From contig NZ_JAGSPD010000003.1 of assembly GCF_019203985.1 (NCBI RefSeq), positions 186,001 to 250,000 on the forward strand: a stretch of 64,000 bases of DNA, written 5' to 3'. The DNA is from Winogradskyella luteola (lineage in GTDB: Bacteria > Bacteroidota > Bacteroidia > Flavobacteriales > Flavobacteriaceae). Both the position numbers and the translations under genes were made by a program. This document shows, piece by piece, positions 3,879 to 31,643 of the stretch (positions within the stretch are counted from its first letter, which is position 1; every line of letters begins with the position of its first letter). The notes below the pieces were generated by a model that worked only from the letters and a program-made list of their open reading frames with translations, made no database searches and was not told where the DNA came from.

Positions 3879-4550
3879 TTGAGTAAGACATTAACCATTA
3901 TTCCTGCGAGAAGAGGTTCTAAAAGAATTCCAAGAAAGAATTTAAGAAAACTAAACGGCCTTTCACTTATTGAGCATAGTATTATCTATGCGCAGAACAA
4001 TATAGAGTATACTCAACACATATGTATCTCAACAGACGATTCAGAAATATTAAAAGTTGCAAAAAAATATAATGTAGATGTAGTAAAAAGGCCTAAGGAA
4101 CTTTCAGGAGACTTGGCAACAACAGTTTCTGCTATAAAGCATGTGCTTCAAACATTAGATAATAATTACGAAAACGTGGTTCTTTTACAACCTACAAACC
4201 CTTTAAGGCCCAAAAATTTATTAAAGGAGGCCTATGGAATATATAGTAAATCAAAAAGTGATAGTTTAATTACCGTAAGTAAAAATGATAAAAAACTGGG
4301 CAAAATCACAGATGGTAAGTATATTCCCTATAGTTATAAAATGGGGCAACGTAGTCAGGACATAGATCCTTTGTATTTTGAAAATGGACTTCTGTATATT
4401 ACCAAAGCATCATTAATTTTAGAAGATAAAATACTTAGTGATAGCAACATTGCATTTATAGTTGACCACCCATATTCGTTAGTAGATATTGATGAAGAAG
4501 ATGATTTTAAGTTCGCAGAGTTCGTGTTAAATAATTACCCTAATGAGTAA
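3879..4550 (+). CDS. neuA: CMP-sialic acid synthetase (acylneuraminate cytidylyltransferase)
   Basis: A 223-residue cytidylyltransferase that would activate a nonulosonic acid with CTP to give the CMP-sugar donor. The N-terminal IIPARRGSKRIPRKNL is the CTP-binding signature of the family. ISTDDSEI, VVLLQPTNPLR and the late VDIDEEDDF stretch (metal-binding acidic residues) are all in the usual order. Length is normal. The start is TTG: no ATG is available upstream in frame after the previous stop, and the signature begins at residue 7. It sits with neuB and neuC, which supports a sialic-type substrate. Confidence 0.88.
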   Translation: MSKTLTIIPARRGSKRIPRKNLRKLNGLSLIEHSIIYAQNNIEYTQHICISTDDSEILKVAKKYNVDVVKRPKELSGDLATTVSAIKHVLQTLDNNYENVVLLQPTNPLRPKNLLKEAYGIYSKSKSDSLITVSKNDKKLGKITDGKYIPYSYKMGQRSQDIDPLYFENGLLYITKASLILEDKILSDSNIAFIVDHPYSLVDIDEEDDFKFAEFVLNNYPNE

Positions 4551-4598
4551 ATCTATAACAAAACGTATTATTTTTCGAATTAGAAGATATAGAAGAAA

Positions 4599-5642
4599 AT
4601 GAATAATCCTTTTATCACAATAGCTGGCCGTAAAATTGGTGCTGACTATTCACCTTTAGTTATTGCCGAAATAGGCATTAATCATGAAGGTTCTTTAAAA
4701 GTTGCCAAAGAAATGGTGGACGCAGCGAAAAGAGCAGGAGTTGAGGTTGTAAAACACCAAACCCATATTGTTGAAGATGAAATGAGTCCAGCGGCAAAAA
4801 AAGTTATACCTGGAAACGCTAAAGTGTCCATATACGAAATAATGGAGCGTTGTGCGCTCAATGAAAAAGACGAAAGAGCACTAAAGGTATATGTAGAAGA
4901 AAAAGGTATGATTTTTATCTCTACTCCTTTTTCGAGAGCGGCAGCCAATAGATTACAGGCTATGAATGTTGAAGCCTACAAAATTGGCTCAGGCGAATGT
5001 AATAATTATCCCTTGTTGGAGCACATTGCCTCCTTTGGAAAGCCTATTATTTTAAGTACGGGAATGAATACAATAGAAAGTGTTAAGAAAGCAGTATCTA
5101 TATTTAATGCTCGTAGCGTTCCTGTAGCTTTGTTGCATACTACAAATTTGTATCCAACACCTTCACATTTAGTACGTTTTGGTGCTATGCAAGAACTGCA
5201 TAGGGCTTTTCCAGATAAAGTATTTGGCTTAAGCGATCACACTTTAAATAATAATGCTTGTTTGGGAGCCGTTGCTCTAGGTGCTTCAATTTTAGAACGG
5301 CATTTTACAGATCATAAAAAACGTACTGGTCCAGACATTGTCTGTAGTATGGATGAAAACGATTGTAAATTACTTATTGAAGGAAGCAAAGAGATATGGC
5401 AAATGAGAGGAGGGACAAAAGCCCCCGCAAAAGAAGAGAAAGTAACCATTGATTTTGCCTTTGCCACAGTTTGCAGTATCAGTGATATTAAAAAAGGAGA
5501 GAAGTTAACAAATGACAATATTTGGGTTAAACGGCCTGGTACGGGTAAGATATTGGCAGAGCACTATAAAAATGTTTTAGGTAAAACAGCTATTAAGAAT
5601 ATTAAAACAGGTACACATCTGGACTATAGCGATTTTGAGTAA
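4599..5642 (+). CDS. neuB: N-acetylneuraminate synthase
   Basis: A 347-residue PEP-dependent synthase that condenses N-acetylmannosamine (or a related amino sugar) with phosphoenolpyruvate to a nonulosonic acid. The TIM-barrel part runs to about residue 270 with [36 protein letters not shown] and GLSDHT, all typical of NeuB. A C-terminal SAF (antifreeze-like) domain follows, with [18 protein letters not shown]. The neighbouring neuC makes ManNAc and neuA activates the product. No legionaminic or pseudaminic acid accessory genes are in this window, so Neu5Ac is the simplest product, but a modified nonulosonate is possible. Confidence 0.9.
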
Positions 5643-6301
5643 TGAAGAAACTATATCAATTAGAGAAGAAATTTGAATACGAAAATGGGTTTTATGCTAC
5701 AGCTGACCCTTCAAGATTCAGTAAATTTATAACGCATTTAGAACTCTTTAGACAAACCAGTAATATTCGAGGTGAAATTATGGAGTTCGGTATTTTTAAA
5801 GGCAACTCTTTCTTTAGATGGGTGAAATTTAGAGATTTGTTAGAACAGACGGCGAGCAGAAAAATTATCGGTTTCGATATTTTTGGTGATTTTCCTGAAG
5901 CAAACTTCAAAGATGACAAAGAAAAGAGAGATGCCTTTGTAGCAGAAACCAATGGAGGTAAAAGTATTTCTTATGAAGAGATAACTGATTTGTTGGCCAA
6001 ACAAAACCTCAATAAAAATATTGAAATAATAAAAGGAGATATATTGATTACCTTAGACCAATACCTCAATAAAAATCCTCACTTAAAGTTGTCTCTTCTT
6101 CATATTGACGTAGATTTGTACGAACCTTCCAAGTTAATTCTAGAAAAATTGTACAGTAGAGTCACTAAAGGTGGAATTATTATTTTAGATGATTATGGTG
6201 CTTTTGCTGGCACAAATAAAGCTGTTGACGATTTTTTTGAAAATAAAGTCGAAGTAAGGAAGTTACCGTATTCTCATGCTATTTCATACATAGTTAAGTA
6301 A
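5642..6301 (+). CDS. TylF/MycF-type SAM methyltransferase
   Basis: A 219-residue methyltransferase of the TylF type (macrocin O-methyltransferase-like). Seen are IMEFGIFKGNSF (motif I in the variant used by this family), IGFDIFGDFPE, a DVDLYEPS strand that supplies metal-binding acids, and IILDDYGAFAGTNKAVDDF, the metal-binding and catalytic end of the family. Such enzymes methylate sugar hydroxyls in a metal-dependent way. Its start overlaps the neuB stop by one base and neuC follows two bases later. The placement between neuB and neuC suggests it acts on the nonulosonic acid or a sugar attached to it. That is inference. Confidence 0.8.
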   Translation: MKKLYQLEKKFEYENGFYATADPSRFSKFITHLELFRQTSNIRGEIMEFGIFKGNSFFRWVKFRDLLEQTASRKIIGFDIFGDFPEANFKDDKEKRDAFVAETNGGKSISYEEITDLLAKQNLNKNIEIIKGDILITLDQYLNKNPHLKLSLLHIDVDLYEPSKLILEKLYSRVTKGGIIILDDYGAFAGTNKAVDDFFENKVEVRKLPYSHAISYIVK

Positions 6302-6302
6302 G

Positions 6303-7424
6303 ATGAAAAAAATAGTATTTCTTACTGGGACTAGAGCTGATTTTGGAAAGTTGAAGCCTTTAATGGCTATTCTTCAAGACAATACATCTTTTATACCTCA
6401 TATATTTGTTACGGGCATGCACTTACAAACATTGTATGGCTATACCCTGATTGAAATCCAAAAAAGTGGATTCAAAAATATTCATGAGTTCAAGAATCAT
6501 GGTAAGGATATACCGATGGATCTTACCTTGGCAAAGACAATTGAAGGGTTTTCCCAGTATATTAACCAACTAAAACCAGACTTAATAGTAGTACACGGTG
6601 ACCGTGTAGAAGCACTAGCTGGTGCTATAGTTGGTTCTCTTAACAATATATTGGTTGCACATATTGAAGGCGGTGAGGTATCGGGTACTATTGATGAGTT
6701 ATTGAGGCATGCTACTAGCAAGATGAGTCATATACATTTTGTGTCTAACGATTTGGCGAAAAAAAGACTTTTGCAAATGGGAGAGATGCCAGAATCTGTT
6801 TTCACAATAGGCTCTCCTGATATAGACATTATGTTTTCTGATAACCTTCCATCACTAAAAATAGCCAAAACATATTACGACATAGAATTTAAGGATTATG
6901 CTATAGCCATGTTTCATCCAGTCACTACTGAGATGGATTCTTTAGATGAACAAATTTCTAATTATATCCAGGCTCTGACAAAGAGTGGTGATAATTACGT
7001 TGTGATATATCCCAATAATGATATGGGTAGTAATATAATATTGAAAGCCTTCGAGGTTATAAAAACCAATCCGAGGTTTAGAGTTTTTCCTTCCCTTAGG
7101 TTTGAGTATTTCTTAGTTCTTTTAAAATATTCTAAATACATTATTGGCAATAGTAGTGCGGGTATTAGGGAAGCTCCTTATTACGGAGTGCCAACAATAA
7201 ATATTGGCACACGTCAGCGTAACAGAAGCCTAAATAAAAATATAATCAATATAAAAAGTGAAGAAGGTTTGATTATAGAATCCATAAAAAAGATAAAATG
7301 TCAGTCTAATGAAGCTATTGGTAAATTTGGAAAGGGCAATAGTGCTAAACTGTTCTTAAAATCATTAGAAACCAAGGCTTTTTGGAGAATTAATCATCAA
7401 AAACAGTTCGTTGACAAAAACTAA
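6303..7424 (+). CDS. neuC: UDP-N-acetylglucosamine 2-epimerase (hydrolysing)
   Basis: A 373-residue epimerase that converts UDP-GlcNAc to ManNAc and UDP, the first step of sialic acid synthesis. The opening KKIVFLTGTRADFGKLKPL is the hydrolysing-type signature (GTRADFGKL), followed by VHGDRVEALAGA, HIEGGEVSGTIDELLRHA and YIIGNSSAGIREAPYYGVP, all in normal order. Length is normal. HIEGGEVSGTIDE is typical of NeuC/LegG rather than the non-hydrolysing WecB. It completes a neuABC set, although the order here is neuA-neuB-methyltransferase-neuC. Its end overlaps the next gene by 14 bases. Confidence 0.9.
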   Translation: MKKIVFLTGTRADFGKLKPLMAILQDNTSFIPHIFVTGMHLQTLYGYTLIEIQKSGFKNIHEFKNHGKDIPMDLTLAKTIEGFSQYINQLKPDLIVVHGDRVEALAGAIVGSLNNILVAHIEGGEVSGTIDELLRHATSKMSHIHFVSNDLAKKRLLQMGEMPESVFTIGSPDIDIMFSDNLPSLKIAKTYYDIEFKDYAIAMFHPVTTEMDSLDEQISNYIQALTKSGDNYVVIYPNNDMGSNIILKAFEVIKTNPRFRVFPSLRFEYFLVLLKYSKYIIGNSSAGIREAPYYGVPTINIGTRQRNRSLNKNIINIKSEEGLIIESIKKIKCQSNEAIGKFGKGNSAKLFLKSLETKAFWRINHQKQFVDKN

Positions 7425-14863: not shown

Positions 14864-15670
14864 ATGATTAAGAAATTCAACGCTTTTTTAGAACGTCTAA
14901 AGTATACCAACACGTATTCCAAATATACGATCCGTCTAATTCTTCCTATTCTTAATATTAGAAAAAGAAAACGTGTAGATTATGCCTTATCAATAGAAGA
15001 TGCACTTAAAAATTTTGAAACTTTGAATGTTCTTGGATCGGGCCCATCTTTAAATAAATGCAACTTTAATAAAGACGAATTATATGTTACAACTAATTCG
15101 TCTTACTTAAGTTTATCTAATGCGCATAGTTTTGTACACATTATAAGGGATGGAGGATATTTAAAACAATTCTTAATGTTTGGCTTAAAATATAAACCAA
15201 AGCTGTTAATTGTTGAGTCCTTATATACAGACAAAGCACCTCTTACCCACATTGCCAATTATGGAGTGCAAGCCCTAAAAAAATATCTCGGAAGACGTAA
15301 ATTTGATTACCCGATACTTATCACGGGTGGAAAGCCGTTTCCTTACTTAGAATTTAATGATAGTTATATTTTGAAGAATCAGTTTTTAAAGGATAATAAT
15401 CTGCAATGGCACGACAGTAATAGTGGTATTACTATTTACAGTTATGCAATTTGGTGGGCTAATATTTATGGGCATATTAAAAATATCAATGTTTACGGTA
15501 TTGATGCAGGTCAAGGTGGGGAAGTGTATTTTAATGGCCAGAAAACAAAATCAGACCACGTTGCAATGAAAGATCTAAACAAAAGTAAAATGGGTGTTTT
15601 TTTTGATAATTGCCAAGCTAAATATAAATTCATACAAAATTATTCATATTTTAAAAACAATGTCGATTAA
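14864..15670 (+). CDS. GT42/DUF115-like protein, candidate sialyltransferase
   Basis: A 268-residue protein with a Rossmann-type fold signature. LGSGPSL (Gly58-Ser62 core) matches the nucleotide-binding turn of GT42 sialyltransferases (CstI/CstII) and of the related MptE-like/DUF115 proteins. TTNSSY follows, as the 'CNQF' stretch does in CstII. Later come SGITIYSYAIWWA (from Ser187), NINVYGIDAG (Gly212-Asp214), and His232 in SDHVAM, placed where GT42 has its catalytic histidine. Because neuA, neuB and neuC are in the same locus, transfer of a CMP-activated sugar is the best guess. A DUF115-type non-transferase role cannot be excluded. It is followed two bases later by the aldolase fusion. Confidence 0.5.
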   Translation: MIKKFNAFLERLKYTNTYSKYTIRLILPILNIRKRKRVDYALSIEDALKNFETLNVLGSGPSLNKCNFNKDELYVTTNSSYLSLSNAHSFVHIIRDGGYLKQFLMFGLKYKPKLLIVESLYTDKAPLTHIANYGVQALKKYLGRRKFDYPILITGGKPFPYLEFNDSYILKNQFLKDNNLQWHDSNSGITIYSYAIWWANIYGHIKNINVYGIDAGQGGEVYFNGQKTKSDHVAMKDLNKSKMGVFFDNCQAKYKFIQNYSYFKNNVD

Positions 15671-15672
15671 CT

Positions 15673-17202
15673 ATGGTAAGAATTTTAGATTGTACTTTAA
15701 GAGATGGGGGTTATTATACAAACTGGGATTTTTCTAATCAGACAGTAGAACAGTACATAGAGACCATAAATAAGTTGCCTATCGAGTATATAGAGTTGGG
15801 CTATAGAAGTATAGATCTAGATGGATACCATGGCGAATTCTTTTATTGCCCCATAAGCACGTTGGAAAGCATAAAATCAACGACGGATAAAAAAATCGCT
15901 ATCCTTTTAAACGAAAAAGATATTAAACCGTCTGATGTTGATGACTTGTTACAACCATGTATGCACTTGGTAGATTTAATTAGAATAGCGGTTAACCCTT
16001 CGAATATCCATAGTGCTATTTCATTAGCTAAGCGTGTGAAACAACTAGATTTTCAAGTTGCTTTTAATGTGATGTATTTATCAGAATGGGATAGCTATCC
16101 AGAACTTTATGAATCATTGCCTAAAATTGAAGATGTAGTTGATATTTTTTACCTCGTAGATTCTTACGGTAGCATTTTTCCTGAGCAATTAAAAGAAATT
16201 ATAACAACCATTAAAAAGTCAACTGATATGGCCTTGGGCTTTCATGGGCATAATAATTTAGAATTGGCATTGGCAAATACAATGCAGGCTATAGAGTGCG
16301 GAGTGCAAATAGTAGATGCAACAATTACTGGAATGGGAAGAGGAGCAGGAAACCTAAAAACAGAATTGATCTTAACGGTTTTAAATAGGAAAAATGGTCT
16401 GAATATTGATTTTGATGCCCTAAGCCATGTTACCGAAATTTTTGAAGATTTAAAAAGCCAATACCAATGGGGGACAACTTTACCTTATATGGTCTCTGGT
16501 ATTAACTCCTTGCCACAAAAAAATGTGATGCATCTTGTACAGAAAAAGATTTATTCTTTAAATACAATTATTAATAAACTGACTAAAAATAATAATAAGC
16601 AAAAACAGTTTGAAGAGTTTAAGGTTAACAATGGTTTTAAAAATGCAGTTATTATTGGAGGTGGTCCTAGTGCAGGGGTACATTCAAAGTTTATTAAACA
16701 ATTTGCAGAGCAACAAAAATCTACATGCCTTATTCACTCATCCTCAAAAAATGCCAATCATTATTCCGATAGTAAAATAGCACAGTTTTTCTGTTTATTG
16801 GGTAACGAAGGTTATCGTCTAAAAAGTGTATTCAATAATTTTTTATCACATTTTGAAGGTCAATGTGTTTTACCGCCCACAAAGAACTTAAAGGGTACGT
16901 TTATTCCACGAGCAGTTGTTGAAAATACATTTCAGTTAGATGAAATAAAGTTCACCGAAATAAAAGAAGACTCACATTTGGCACTTGCTATTCAAATAGC
17001 ACTAAAGCTACAAGTCGATACAATATATTTTGTAGGTTATGATGGTTATAGCCAAAATCAAATTGCAGCTAAGGATTTAAAATTTTTCAAAGAAAATTCA
17101 AAAATCTTTAACGATTTACGAAAAGAAGCCGTAGAATTTTGCTCGCTTACACCTACACTATATGATGTTTTGCCCAAATCAAGTGTGTTTAAGTATATCT
17201 AA
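15673..17202 (+). CDS. DRE-TIM pyruvate aldolase fused to a GT42/DUF115-like domain
   Basis: A 509-residue two-domain protein. Residues 1 to about 280 are an HMGL-like aldolase of the 4-hydroxy-2-oxovalerate aldolase type: LDCTLRDGG (Asp6, Arg10, Asp11), FHGHNN with the metal-binding pair His191/His193, and GMGRGAGNLKTE. This fold adds or removes pyruvate on aldehydes using a divalent metal. Residues about 320-509 hold GGGPS (329-333), then a long helix followed by VDTIYFVGYDGYS, the pattern also seen in the preceding gene. No histidine equivalent to the GT42 catalytic one is visible there. It is followed six bases later by a KdsB-type gene. I infer the product is a 3-deoxy-2-keto sugar acid or its phosphate. 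Confidence 0.7.
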   Translation: MVRILDCTLRDGGYYTNWDFSNQTVEQYIETINKLPIEYIELGYRSIDLDGYHGEFFYCPISTLESIKSTTDKKIAILLNEKDIKPSDVDDLLQPCMHLVDLIRIAVNPSNIHSAISLAKRVKQLDFQVAFNVMYLSEWDSYPELYESLPKIEDVVDIFYLVDSYGSIFPEQLKEIITTIKKSTDMALGFHGHNNLELALANTMQAIECGVQIVDATITGMGRGAGNLKTELILTVLNRKNGLNIDFDALSHVTEIFEDLKSQYQWGTTLPYMVSGINSLPQKNVMHLVQKKIYSLNTIINKLTKNNNKQKQFEEFKVNNGFKNAVIIGGGPSAGVHSKFIKQFAEQQKSTCLIHSSSKNANHYSDSKIAQFFCLLGNEGYRLKSVFNNFLSHFEGQCVLPPTKNLKGTFIPRAVVENTFQLDEIKFTEIKEDSHLALAIQIALKLQVDTIYFVGYDGYSQNQIAAKDLKFFKENSKIFNDLRKEAVEFCSLTPTLYDVLPKSSVFKYI

Positions 17203-17208
17203 ATATTT

Positions 17209-17940
17209 ATGAAAATTGTAACAGTAATACCTGCCAGATACGATTCTAAAAGGTTTCCTGGAAAACCATTAGTGGATATAGCTGGCAAATCCATGATTAA
17301 GAGAGTCTATGAAAAATGTAGAGAAGTTATCGATAATACTGATCTATACGTTGCAACAGACAGCCAGTTAATATATCAACATTGTATAGATAATAATATG
17401 AATGTTGTAATGACAAGCTCTAATTGTTTAACAGGAACTGATAGAATTGCCGAGTTTTCCTTAAAAATAAAAGCCGATTATTATATAAATGTTCAGGGTG
17501 ACGAACCTGTAATTGACTCGCAAGATATTTTAAAAATCAAAGAATCGATTCTAAAACATCCTAGTAAAATTATTAATGGTTATTGTGCGATAAAATCTGA
17601 AGAAACTTTTCGTAGCCTTACAATGCCAAAAGTTGTTTTTAGAGAAGACGAACGTCTTTTATATATGTCTAGATCACCTATACCAGGGAATAAAAACGAT
17701 CAATTTAACATTGGTTTTAGGCAAGTTTGTATTTATGCCTTTCCTTATAAATCATTAGAAGACTTTTATAAGTGCAAAGCTAAAACACGTTTTGAAAGTC
17801 AAGAGGATATAGAAATCCTTAGGTTTTTAGAATTGGGTTTTGATGTACAGATGGTTCTTTTATCCGATACTTCAATTCCTGTAGATACACCAGAAGATTT
17901 ACAAAAGGTTATAAACTATGTCAATAAAATTGAAAGATAA
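17209..17940 (+). CDS. kdsB: KdsB-type CMP-ulosonate synthetase (3-deoxy-manno-octulosonate cytidylyltransferase family)
   Basis: A 243-residue cytidylyltransferase. The N-terminus VTVIPARYDSKRFPGKPL is the KdsB signature, with YVATDSQLI, TGTDRIAE, INVQGDEPVID and the RSPIP stretch following in normal order. It would activate a 2-keto-3-deoxy sugar acid with CTP. Housekeeping kdsB is usually placed elsewhere in the genome. Its position between an aldolase and a phosphatase, and its 23-base overlap with the phosphatase gene, suggest a dedicated paralogue for a locus-specific ulosonic acid rather than for core Kdo. That last point is inference: whether a second kdsB exists cannot be seen here. 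Confidence 0.85.
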   Translation: MKIVTVIPARYDSKRFPGKPLVDIAGKSMIKRVYEKCREVIDNTDLYVATDSQLIYQHCIDNNMNVVMTSSNCLTGTDRIAEFSLKIKADYYINVQGDEPVIDSQDILKIKESILKHPSKIINGYCAIKSEETFRSLTMPKVVFREDERLLYMSRSPIPGNKNDQFNIGFRQVCIYAFPYKSLEDFYKCKAKTRFESQEDIEILRFLELGFDVQMVLLSDTSIPVDTPEDLQKVINYVNKIER

Positions 17941-18556
17941 AAATGTTATCCTGTGGGATTTTGATGGTGTAATTTTAAATAGTAATGACATTAGAGACAT
18001 TGGATTTACTAAAACACTAGAAAACTTTCCTAAAGAACAGGTAGATGAATTAATGAAATACCACCACGAAAATGGAGGTCTTTCGAGATACAATAAATTC
18101 AGGTATTTTTTTGAAAAAATAAGAGACGAAACAGTTAATGATGCATTAATTTTAGAATATGCCTCAAGGTTTTCTCAGGTAATGCTCAATAGACTTATTA
18201 ATAAATCACTTTTAATTGAAGATTCTTTTAAGTTCATTAAAGAAAATTATAGAAGTATGCGAATGCATATCGTCTCTGCTTCGGATCAAAATGAGTTAAG
18301 AACTATTTGTAAAGGATTGGGTATCGATAAATTTTTTCATTCAATTCAAGGGTCTCCAACTACTAAGATTGATAATGTATCAAGTATTTTAGAAGAAAAT
18401 AAATATAAAAAAGAAGCTACAGTTTTAATTGGCGATTCAATAAATGATTACCACGCAGCATCCAAAAATGGAATTAGCTTTATTGGTTACAATAATATAA
18501 ATTTGAAAGCTAATGTGCTTAATTACATAGAAAGTTTTAACGCTATTATATCATAA
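17918..18556 (+). CDS. HAD family phosphatase
   Basis: A 212-residue haloacid dehalogenase-type hydrolase. Motif I is WDFDGVI with the nucleophile Asp14 and the acid/base Asp16. Motif II is VSASD, a lysine follows in TTKID, and motif IV is IGDSINDYHAA, giving the metal-binding acids. A helical cap lies between motifs I and II (type C1), as in phosphoglycolate phosphatases, and unlike the capless KdsC. The gene overlaps the kdsB-type gene by 23 bases, so the two are translated together. The likely job is removing phosphate from the sugar-acid intermediate before CMP activation. Confidence 0.82.
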   Translation: MSIKLKDKNVILWDFDGVILNSNDIRDIGFTKTLENFPKEQVDELMKYHHENGGLSRYNKFRYFFEKIRDETVNDALILEYASRFSQVMLNRLINKSLLIEDSFKFIKENYRSMRMHIVSASDQNELRTICKGLGIDKFFHSIQGSPTTKIDNVSSILEENKYKKEATVLIGDSINDYHAASKNGISFIGYNNINLKANVLNYIESFNAIIS

Positions 18557-29864: not shown

Positions 29865-30678
29865 GCTTTCTTTTTCTATTTTGATTCTTAACGACTACTG
29901 CCGAAATGTAAATACTTATTTGATATAATACTAAAATTGGTATAGCTACTATAACTTGGCTTGCAATATCCGGAGGAGTTATGATTGCCGATAATATTAA
30001 AACAATGACCAGTGCATATTTTCTATACCTTCTTAAAAATTGAGGTGTCACCAATCCGACTTTGGTTAAAAAGTATATAAGTATTGGCAGCTCAAAAACA
30101 AAACCAGAGGCTATAGCAGAAGAACGCACAATGGCAATGACAGAGCTTACATCAAACTCATTAGAAATTTGTTCACTAATTTGATAGTTGGCTAAAAAGT
30201 TAATGGACAACGGAGTGATTATATAGTAACCAAACAAAACTCCAGTAAAAAACAGAAGTGAAGCAATAACCAAAAACCCTCGGGAATTTTTACGCTCACT
30301 GGGTTTTAAACCAGGACTTATAAAACTCCATAGTTGATACAAAACATAAGGAAATGCTACAATAAATCCAGCGTAAATCGATGTCCAAATATGGGCAGAA
30401 AATTGACCTGCAACTGTTCTGTTTTGAATGATAAATGGGAATTTATCAGCACAAAATGTCGTATCTGTCATTCCAAAAAACTTTGAAACTTGGCATAGTC
30501 CATTGTAAGTGAGGAAATCCATTTTTGTTGGCCCAAATATAATGACATCAAAAATAAATTTCTTGCAAATAAAAGCTATAGTAGCTGCAATGACAATTCC
30601 TAAAGTCGCTCTAATTAAATGCCATCTTAAATCCTCAAGATGATCTAAAAAAGACATGTCGTCAATCTGTTTTGTCAT
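29857..30678 (-). CDS. tatC: Sec-independent protein translocase TatC
   Basis: A 273-residue membrane protein, the substrate-receptor part of the Tat system for folded proteins. MSFLDHLEDLRWHLIRA is the TatC N-terminal signature. PYVLYQLWSFISPGLKPSERK and FGYYIITPLSINFL follow, with six hydrophobic segments. A loop of about 50 residues with two Cys after the first membrane helix is longer than in E. coli TatC, as is common in Bacteroidota. The only Tat-like signal seen in the window is on the flavin oxidoreductase at 37334-38335. Its ATG overlaps the kdsD stop by one base. Confidence 0.94.
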   Translation of the reverse strand: MTKQIDDMSFLDHLEDLRWHLIRATLGIVIAATIAFICKKFIFDVIIFGPTKMDFLTYNGLCQVSKFFGMTDTTFCADKFPFIIQNRTVAGQFSAHIWTSIYAGFIVAFPYVLYQLWSFISPGLKPSERKNSRGFLVIASLLFFTGVLFGYYIITPLSINFLANYQISEQISNEFDVSSVIAIVRSSAIASGFVFELPILIYFLTKVGLVTPQFLRRYRKYALVIVLILSAIITPPDIASQVIVAIPILVLYQISIYISAVVVKNQNRKRKHV

Positions 30679-31643
30679 TAGATAATGCCTTCTTTAATTA
30701 AATCGTGAAGATGAACAACACCTGCATATTTTCCATCATGTTCAACCAATAATTGTGAAATACCGAATTCTTCCATCACTTCTTTGGCATCCACAGCCAT
30801 AGCATTTTCTTCAATAAGTCTTGGATTTGTGCTCATAATGTCCTTGGCCCTTAGTTCTGTAATAGCATCACTTTTGCTAAGCATTCTTCTTAAATCGCCA
30901 TCTGTAATAATACCAACAATTTTATTATTGTCAATCACTGCAGTAACCCCAAGCATTTTTTCTGTAATCTCAACAATTACTTCCTTTAAGCTTGCTTCTA
31001 GGCCAACTTGAGGTTTTAAGTTTTGTGATGATAAATCGTTTACTCTTAAATAGAGGCGTTTTCCTAAGGCACCACCAGGGTGGTATTTTGCAAAATCCTT
31101 GCTGGAAAATCCTCTTAATTCGAGCAAGCAAACCGCTAAGGCATCACCCATTACCAACTGAGCTGTTGTGCTAGTAGTCGGTGCTAAATTGTTAGGACAT
31201 GCTTCCTGTTCTACATAAGCATTGAGAATATAATCGGCTTGTTGTCCCAAAAAGGAATCTATGTTACCCGTAATGGCAATCATTTTATTTTTCGCATTCT
31301 TAATAAGCGGTACCAAAACTTTAATTTCGGGTGTGTTCCCACTTTTAGAAATACAAATAACCACATCGTCTTCTAAGATCAATCCCAAGTCACCATGTAT
31401 GGCATCTGCTGCATGCATAAAAACTGAAGGCGTTCCCGTGGAATTCAAAGTTGCTACTATTTTGTTAGCAATAATGGCACTTTTGCCAATTCCTGTTATA
31501 ATAACTCTCCCTTTGGAATGATATATTAGCTCCACTGCATTTGCGAAATCTTCTGTAAGCAATTCCGATAAATTTGCAATGGCTTTACTTTCAGACTTTA
31601 TGGTGCTTTTTGCAATGTTTAAAATAGAAGACACAGTGTTCAA
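30678..31643 (-). CDS. kdsD: Arabinose-5-phosphate isomerase
   Basis: A 321-residue enzyme that converts ribulose 5-phosphate to arabinose 5-phosphate for Kdo synthesis. The SIS domain has VIITGIGKSAIIANKIVATLNSTGTPSVFMHAADAIHGDLG and ISKSGNTPE, the family signature. KYHPGGALGKRL joins to two C-terminal CBS domains (VTAVIDNNKIVGIITDGDLRR and a second copy near the end). Length is normal. The start is TTG, with no in-frame ATG before the conserved region. It heads the leftward group kdsD-tatC-AhpD-like. It supplies canonical Kdo, separate from the kdsB-type gene in the glycan locus. Confidence 0.94.
   Translation of the reverse strand: MNTVSSILNIAKSTIKSESKAIANLSELLTEDFANAVELIYHSKGRVIITGIGKSAIIANKIVATLNSTGTPSVFMHAADAIHGDLGLILEDDVVICISKSGNTPEIKVLVPLIKNAKNKMIAITGNIDSFLGQQADYILNAYVEQEACPNNLAPTTSTTAQLVMGDALAVCLLELRGFSSKDFAKYHPGGALGKRLYLRVNDLSSQNLKPQVGLEASLKEVIVEITEKMLGVTAVIDNNKIVGIITDGDLRRMLSKSDAITELRAKDIMSTNPRLIEENAMAVDAKEVMEEFGISQLLVEHDGKYAGVVHLHDLIKEGII

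Follow-up and report, generated by a model that had tools for sequence, protein, structure and literature searches.

A conserved aldolase fusion and its cytidylyltransferase neighbour in Winogradskyella luteola suggest a second route to sialic-acid-like surface sugars

This analysis concerns four consecutive forward-strand genes in a stretch of 64,000 nucleotides of the Winogradskyella luteola genome (contig NZ_JAGSPD010000003.1; hereafter the window, meaning the whole stretch of DNA that was analysed). They encode, in order, a 268-residue protein, a 509-residue fusion of an aldolase-type barrel with a second domain, a 243-residue cytidylyltransferase and a 212-residue hydrolase of the HAD type, separated by gaps of 2 bp and 6 bp and then joined by an overlap of 23 bp (Table 1). 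A sequence-only reading of the window had seen here a route to a cytidine monophosphate (CMP)-activated ulosonate in which a pyruvate aldolase takes the place of the usual phosphoenolpyruvate (PEP)-dependent synthase. The genes lie where that reading placed them, all on the forward strand and the last two overlapping, and the fusion carries the motifs LDCTLRDGG, H191/H193, GGGPS and VDTIYFVGYDGYS exactly as it noted. As for the proposed replacement itself, the support is strong but comes from gene context (80 of 80 loci, as described below) rather than from direct proof. This linkage of aldolase and cytidylyltransferase suggests a second route to sialic-acid-like surface sugars.

Table 1. Features of the four-gene cluster, in positions of the window
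Feature	Position	Strand	Basis or remark
268-aa protein gene	14864-15670	+	open reading frame list
509-aa fusion protein gene	15673-17202	+	reads as a DRE-TIM barrel of 4-hydroxy-2-oxovalerate aldolase (HOA) type plus a C-terminal domain of predicted Maf/MptE/GT42-like fold
Fusion, aldolase domain (residues 1-300)	15673-16572	+	family models, predicted structure
Fusion, LDCTLRDGG motif	15685-15711	+	
Fusion, H191 codon	16243-16245	+	
Fusion, H193 codon	16249-16251	+	
Fusion, C-terminal domain (residues 313-509)	16609-17199	+	predicted fold
C-terminal domain, GGG motif	16657-16665	+	
C-terminal domain, GYDGY motif	17035-17049	+	
KdsB-type cytidylyltransferase gene, 243 aa	17209-17940	+	family models
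KdsB-type protein, Gln172 codon	17722-17724	+	His here in most comparison KdsBs
HAD_2/HAD-IA hydrolase gene, 212 aa	17918-18556	+	family models; probable phosphatase

The fusion belongs to a known orphan family, of which the barrel of one member has been solved (3DXI). Peptides of the W. luteola fusion itself served as the query for a scan of genome contigs that confirmed 149 relatives; the neighbour counts given here refer to the best 80 of these. Neighbours were open reading frames of at least 80 aa, taken as non-overlapping picks and sorted by profiles made from the loci; family names rest on checks of representatives, and some contigs end early. "Nearby" denotes positions -3 to +4 relative to the fusion, in genes on the same strand. 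Two of the fusion proteins are identical, and two loci (L084 and L098) come from one metagenome bin, with proteins nearly those of L083 and L035. The fusion is matched nearly end to end at all 80 loci, and all 33 other proteins aligned with it keep its architecture (43-53 % identity), so the 509-residue arrangement is no chance product. The hosts are, by their NCBI names, Bacteroidota, Balneolota (L044, L051, L076) and one Verrucomicrobiota bin (L079). Eight of 296 sampled genomes of the phylum, W. luteola included, carry the fusion at E < 1e-100, which indicates a patchy spread, as is often seen for surface-glycan genes.

A cytidylyltransferase lies nearby at every one of the 80 loci: KdsB-type only at 35, NeuA-like only at 44, and both at one. 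It is directly adjacent to the fusion at 69 loci, 62 of which have a gap of at most 20 bp, and at distances of five genes or more only 11 of 478 genes are cytidylyltransferases. NeuB is present at 13 loci and near the fusion at four; the cytidylyltransferase, rather than a synthase, is what always accompanies the fusion. The two partner types alternate, with 15 changes on the best quick tree of the fusion, eight of them forced by well-supported branches, as expected if each type activates the product of the fusion; shuffled type labels need about 26 changes, so the partner types also cluster. The sequence-only reading would have been weakened by an aldolase that is common without a KdsB-type gene. 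This is indeed the situation at 44 of the 80 loci, yet all 44 hold a NeuA-like gene instead, so that the CMP idea gains strength and its KdsB-specific wording loses it.

The label of KdsB-type cytidylyltransferase was well chosen for the 243-residue protein, which passes NF009905 (282.9 vs 255 bits) and NF003952 (237.5 vs 193 bits) and falls below the equivalog TIGR00466 (130.8 vs 155.2 bits). The KdsB motif [RK]H[LVI]GIY contains a His that we take to be a contact of Kdo (3-deoxy-D-manno-octulosonic acid). This His is replaced in all 37 cluster KdsBs (36 loci and the window), by Gln in 33 and Ala in 4, and is kept in 20 of 21 comparison KdsBs (20 copies from fusion-bearing genomes and the second copy of W. 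luteola). Five solved KdsBs among the matches listed (of 13) have His at this position, and R10, K19 and R205 are kept in all 37 cluster copies. Because the motif His is replaced, by Gln172, the 243-residue protein is not filed as a CMP-Kdo synthetase. In a tree of the 58 KdsB rows (quick and without bootstrap, as were all trees), 33 of the 37 cluster copies group with one non-cluster row of Phocaeicola vulgatus (SH-aLRT 87), and 20 of the 21 comparison copies group together (SH-aLRT 91). On the NeuA-like side, where the tree has long branches, 35 of the 36 proteins at +1 to +3 in loci without an HpaI-type gene are united in a single clade (SH-aLRT 99) that excludes 14 others, the window's own NeuA-like protein among them. 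Judged from their sequences, the cluster cytidylyltransferases of both types look dedicated. One of the 20 comparison copies from fusion-bearing genomes, a KdsB-type protein of P. vulgatus (L133, G333:C1:4970650-4971357), has Phe at the His position, and its gene has a NeuB gene at a distance of about 2 kb; it is probably no housekeeping KdsB because of that location, and possibly a synthetase of CMP-Kdn (3-deoxy-D-glycero-D-galacto-nonulosonic acid).

The N-terminal domain of the fusion had been read as an aldolase of the HOA kind, and this is borne out at the level of the superfamily. It passes the cut-off of the HMGL-like model PF00682 (2.2e-24, profile search), and Foldseek recognises a TIM barrel in the predicted structure (pLDDT 87.3), with 3dxi_A as the first match (TM-score 0.97 on the target) followed by the HOA aldolases 4lrs_A and 1nvm_A; both results place the domain in the DRE-TIM superfamily. 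The nearest curated function is HOA (NF006049, 1.6e-32), and the Arg-Asp pair of TLRDG and the HxH residues of HOA-type aldolases are kept. Across an alignment of 34 fusion rows, R10, D11, Y14, R45, R104, H191, H193, N195, D215, R223 and N227 are invariant. Of these, R10, D11, R104, H191, H193, N195, D215 and N227 are common to the fusion and L013, a barrel that looks HOA-type by eye (five-row alignment); R10, D11, H191 and H193 are presumably catalytic residues or metal ligands. Arg45 and Arg223 have no counterpart in L013 and are candidates for the binding of a phosphate or a second carboxylate. Together with L011 and L015, L013 is one of three barrels with 26-31 % identity that were considered as relatives without the second domain and set aside as too distant. 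By eye, L013 adjoins an acetaldehyde-dehydrogenase-like gene, and the L011 barrel (L011:658-3444; 31 % over residues 4-241) lies between HpaI-like and 2-hydroxyacid-dehydrogenase-like genes, perhaps another pathway combining both aldolase classes.

The C-terminal domain, modelled alone with a pLDDT of 92.6, had been described as GT42-like, and far from being an unrelated fold its prediction is Maf/MptE/GT42-like. The best VIA Z (13.8; 184 residues, 3.4 A) is to the Maf glycosyltransferase of Magnetospirillum (5mu5), followed by SteA, a cell division regulator (12.6 and 12.2), the archaeal HPPK MjHPPK (8sd5; 11.6), the GT42 sialyltransferases CstI/CstII (10.0-10.9), thiamine pyrophosphokinases (8.6-10.6) and mammalian sialyltransferases (6.2-7.6); plain Foldseek places thiamine pyrophosphokinase and HPPK on top. 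Since Maf, SteA, HPPK, CstI/CstII and thiamine pyrophosphokinases all match, the predicted fold does not discriminate between functions: it supports "GT42-like" and would suit a transferase, a pyrophosphokinase or a non-enzymatic binder. At the family level the label fared less well, as the fusion does not match the CST-I (GT42) Pfam model at E up to 1 and reaches MptE-like PF01973 only below its cut-off (22.6 of 34.6 bits), with 21 of 34 members matching it at E up to 0.1. The CST-I model (PF06002) has 0 matches in 148 genomes of the phylum and 0 also in 14 controls, and thus shows no absence. Profile comparison of the domain with MptE-like neighbours (hhalign) gives a probability of 85 and a P-value of 6.1e-06; a profile search of solved structures with the domain gave nothing credible (best E 0.28).

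Invariant in the C-terminal domain are GGG, Asp457, Tyr459 (in the GYDGY motif), Glu474 and Asn475. GT42 enzymes use a catalytic His; in the 34 rows no His is invariant, the commonest being His337 (30/34) and His355 (27/34), two of the five in the window's fusion (337, 355, 363, 393, 435). Isopropylmalate synthase and other DRE-TIM enzymes carry an end-product sensor behind the barrel, so that a sensor of CMP-sugar is as plausible here as a transferase.

The 212-residue protein is assigned to HAD_2 (67.3 vs 23.8 bits), passes the HAD-IA model TIGR01549 (33.5 over 23.3) and misses the cut-off of KdsC-type TIGR01670 (22.9 vs 106.95 bits); it is a probable phosphatase. A HAD gene is found nearby at 64 of the 80 loci (+2 in 49, +3 in 11, +4 in 4). 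At six loci (L088, L090, L096, L099, L103, L107) the fusion is accompanied by a PfkB kinase and a HAD gene is lacking, the single PfkB tested against NCBIfam being closest to the 2-keto-3-deoxygluconate (KDG) kinase kind. Nine others (L042, L044, L048, L052, L053, L061, L063, L064, L087) have an HpaI-type aldolase, always with NeuA-like and HAD genes; the one representative tested matches HpaI/GarL models, below cut-off. By these representatives, the PfkB (6/80) and HpaI/GarL-type (9/80) neighbours fall in families of 2-keto-3-deoxy-acid metabolism, which supports a product of that class. Transferase groups, also named by representatives, lie nearby: GT29 at 14 loci, polysialyltransferase at 12, Capsule_synth at 10 and MptE-like at 10. 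CMP-sialic acid or CMP-Kdo is the substrate in the GT29, polysialyltransferase and Capsule_synth families. Of the six transferase groups counted, one or more occur at 46 loci.

With regard to the standard synthases, the W. luteola genome has a KdsA over cut-off and a second KdsB (36 % identity), so Kdo for lipopolysaccharide can be obtained without this cluster. The cluster's KdsB-type gene is not the only one of its genome, the case in which the sequence-only reading would have lost ground. Genome searches covered 43 of the 80 loci, chiefly named isolates, and found a KdsB-type copy (31-41 % identity) in 43 of 43 other fusion-bearing genomes, that of G314 with an internal stop. NeuB over the PF03102 cut-off is absent from 12 of these 43 genomes, one of which has a sub-cut-off match and 11 no match. 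The genomes of L059, L060, L066 (all Sphingobacterium), L087 and L091 lack any NeuB match and have a NeuA-like partner; the acid should then come from something other than NeuB, although these are mostly drafts in which a gene may be missed.

Altogether, the product of the cluster appears rather likely to be a 2-keto-3-deoxy sugar acid in CMP-activated form, ulosonic but not Kdo, made without KdsA or NeuB; we infer every reaction of the scheme. The metal-dependent DRE-TIM barrel would join pyruvate and an open-chain sugar aldehyde, most likely phosphorylated, to give a 2-keto-3-deoxy acid, from which the HAD enzyme would strip the phosphate. The KdsB-type enzyme, or elsewhere the dedicated NeuA-like enzyme, would then form the CMP-ulosonate, and a CMP-dependent transferase would place the ulosonate onto a surface glycan. 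The fusion's second domain may bind the CMP-ulosonate, either for transfer or for feedback sensing as behind other DRE-TIM barrels. All other gene groups are less constant than those of the cytidylyltransferases and the HAD enzyme, so that the aldehyde probably comes from central metabolism. Chances seem about even for the broader statement that, in Bacteroidota, Balneolota and one Verrucomicrobiota bin, a permanent fusion of a DRE-TIM pyruvate aldolase with a sialyltransferase fold offers a further route to CMP-activated ulosonic acids, making a family of non-Kdo acidic sugars that dedicated KdsB- or NeuA-type enzymes activate interchangeably, the fused domain transferring the sugar or sensing its CMP form.

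Several observations weigh against this scheme. The barrel misses the cut-offs of both HOA models (112.9 vs 229 bits for NF006049; 97.8 vs 286 bits for TIGR03217), and all 34 fusions have Tyr14 where HOA-type L013 has His after TLRDG. Because of the missed TIGR03217 cut-off and the invariant Tyr14, the barrel is best described as a DRE-TIM metallolyase of HOA type, yet no HOA aldolase proper. The 80 loci are related and do not represent independent events. Four cluster KdsBs (L038, L040, L041, L072) form a separate deep branch, and L103, among four tested representatives of the NeuA-like group, narrowly misses the CTP_transf_3 cut-off (21.4 of 22.6 bits). Sixteen loci have no HAD gene counted nearby (at L066 a partial HAD match was dropped in the picking of reading frames, and at L108 the HAD gene is on the opposite strand), and the kinase that stands in for it at six loci is not explained by a simple phosphatase step. 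At the nine HpaI loci there are two aldolase types, either of which may make the acid; their NeuA-like enzymes fall outside the 35-row clade, four of them close to it and five on a distant branch, a hint of a different product there. None of the six counted transferase groups is found at 34 loci. Finally, NeuB passes the PF03102 cut-off in 31 of the 43 fusion-bearing genomes searched, and the window itself holds NeuA- and NeuB-like genes.

The frequency of NeuB bears on a first alternative, in which the cytidylyltransferase uses an acid made elsewhere by NeuB or KdsA, and the fusion makes, for instance, a hydroxy-acid substituent or tailors the CMP-sugar. The fold of the fused domain, common to nucleotide-sugar enzymes, would suit such a role, and NeuB lies inside 13 loci. 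We nevertheless consider this unlikely, because the cytidylyltransferase is constant at loci where NeuB is near in just 4 of 80, the adjacent NeuA-like enzymes outside the HpaI loci form a clade of their own (35/36), and the five genomes without any NeuB match have NeuA-like partners, drafts though most of them are.

Less probable still is a duplicate Kdo pathway dedicated to capsule, in which the fusion would join pyruvate and arabinose 5-phosphate to give Kdo 8-phosphate or a closely similar compound; group 2 capsules, with their second CMP-Kdo synthetase, offer a model. The KdsB-type protein that passes NF009905, the HAD hydrolase alongside, the Capsule_synth-type group at 10 of 80 loci and a gene at 30678-31643 of the window that by eye resembles KdsD, the arabinose 5-phosphate isomerase, 12 kb downstream of the cluster, fit this idea. 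It is hard to reconcile with the loss of the motif His from all 37 cluster KdsBs, which have Gln or Ala instead, with NeuA-like substitutes at 44 of 80 loci and with a genome that already has KdsA and a second KdsB. Very improbable is a Claisen-type synthase that joins acetyl-CoA and a keto acid in the manner of isopropylmalate or homocitrate synthase, its product being no sugar acid: the superfamily is the same and the 2-isopropylmalate and homocitrate synthase models match, but they are outscored by the HOA models (71.3 bits against 112.9 and 97.8), the nearest structures after 3DXI are HOA aldolases, and the barrel reads TLRDGG, not the TLRDGE of Claisen-type DRE-TIM members.

The remaining genes of the neighbourhood are less constant. 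The 268-residue protein had been labelled GT42/DUF115-like, a label that could not be confirmed: it matches no Pfam family (E up to 1) and no protein of solved structure (E up to 10), its profile comparison with the MptE-like neighbours (hhalign) matched only the stretch around GPSL (probability 7.8), a like comparison of its family with the fusion's C-terminal domain gave no decisive match, and relatives occur at two of the 80 loci (L033 and L064; 41 and 40 % identity). It is a candidate glycosyltransferase by motif only (GSGPSL, GIDAG), and the idea of the sequence-only reading that this protein or the fused domain performs the transfer gained no support. The window is AT-rich (30-38 % GC), with two family-2 glycosyltransferases upstream of the four genes (profile search) and glycosyltransferase-like genes downstream (by eye). 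Another cytidylyltransferase is encoded at 3879-4550 (CTP_transf_3 at 8.7e-24), close to NeuB-like (4599-5642) and NeuC-like (6303-7424) genes recognised by eye; this 3879-7424 set probably gives the strain a conventional nonulosonic acid in addition. The surroundings of L072 seem, by eye, unrelated to glycans.

Genome searches find sialic-acid-like sugars through NeuB and Kdo through KdsA. If the proposed pathway exists, such searches overlook a class of acidic sugars on the surface of Bacteroidota from soil, sea and gut, P. vulgatus among them. A function would also be found for an aldolase family with a structure released in 2008, and a pyruvate-using enzyme would be on offer for CMP-sugar synthesis.

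The closest known relative is BVU_2661 of Bacteroides (Phocaeicola) vulgatus, a "putative aldolase" whose barrel alone was released as 3DXI in 2008; it resembles the fusion barrel with a phmmer E of 3.8e-107 over residues 2-312 and a TM-score of 0.97. The P. vulgatus locus (L103) holds the full fusion with a NeuA-like gene and a PfkB kinase. The 3DXI record describes a solved N-terminal domain under a title without function, to which the present analysis adds the C-terminal domain, the partner genes and the link to CMP. Searches of the open-licence PMC literature turned up no description of the pathway, the cluster or BVU_2661 among the matches listed, which is no proof of absence in print; there, the string 3DXI occurs in other senses, mostly in ultrasound imaging. 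A CMP pathway of the phosphonate type was also considered, and a word search of the main text of PMC6697681 returned no mention of aldolase.

HOA aldolases of the DmpG/BphI/AmnG type (1nvm, 4lrs, 8ih7) share the barrel fold. The fusion differs from them by Tyr14 in place of His, by Arg45 and Arg223, which are extra relative to L013, and by a C-terminal domain resembling nucleotide-sugar enzymes; unlike for HOA aldolases, an aldehyde dehydrogenase group is not among its commonest neighbour groups (by eye). Maf (5mu5), CstI/CstII and the MptE-like HPPK (8sd5) share the predicted fold of the C-terminal domain, which is distinguished by its place behind an aldolase and by the lack of a CST-I match; no His is invariant in its 34 rows. 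The KdsA-KdsC-KdsB, NeuB-NeuA and Kdn-9-phosphate synthase routes likewise place a KdsB- or NeuA-type gene, mostly with a HAD gene, beside a carbon-carbon-forming enzyme. NeuB is presented in a passage of a 2020 survey as the sole gene conserved over nonulosonic-acid pathways and species (PMC7371886), and an assay passage on the Kdn-9-phosphate synthase of B. thetaiotaomicron names PEP and mannose 6-phosphate (PMC6200933). These pathways are PEP-dependent, whereas in the fusion cluster an aldolase-type barrel stands beside the cytidylyltransferase. We rate as the new element the proposed synthesis of a CMP-ulosonate with a different carbon-carbon-forming enzyme, and the gene neighbourhood as the novel part.

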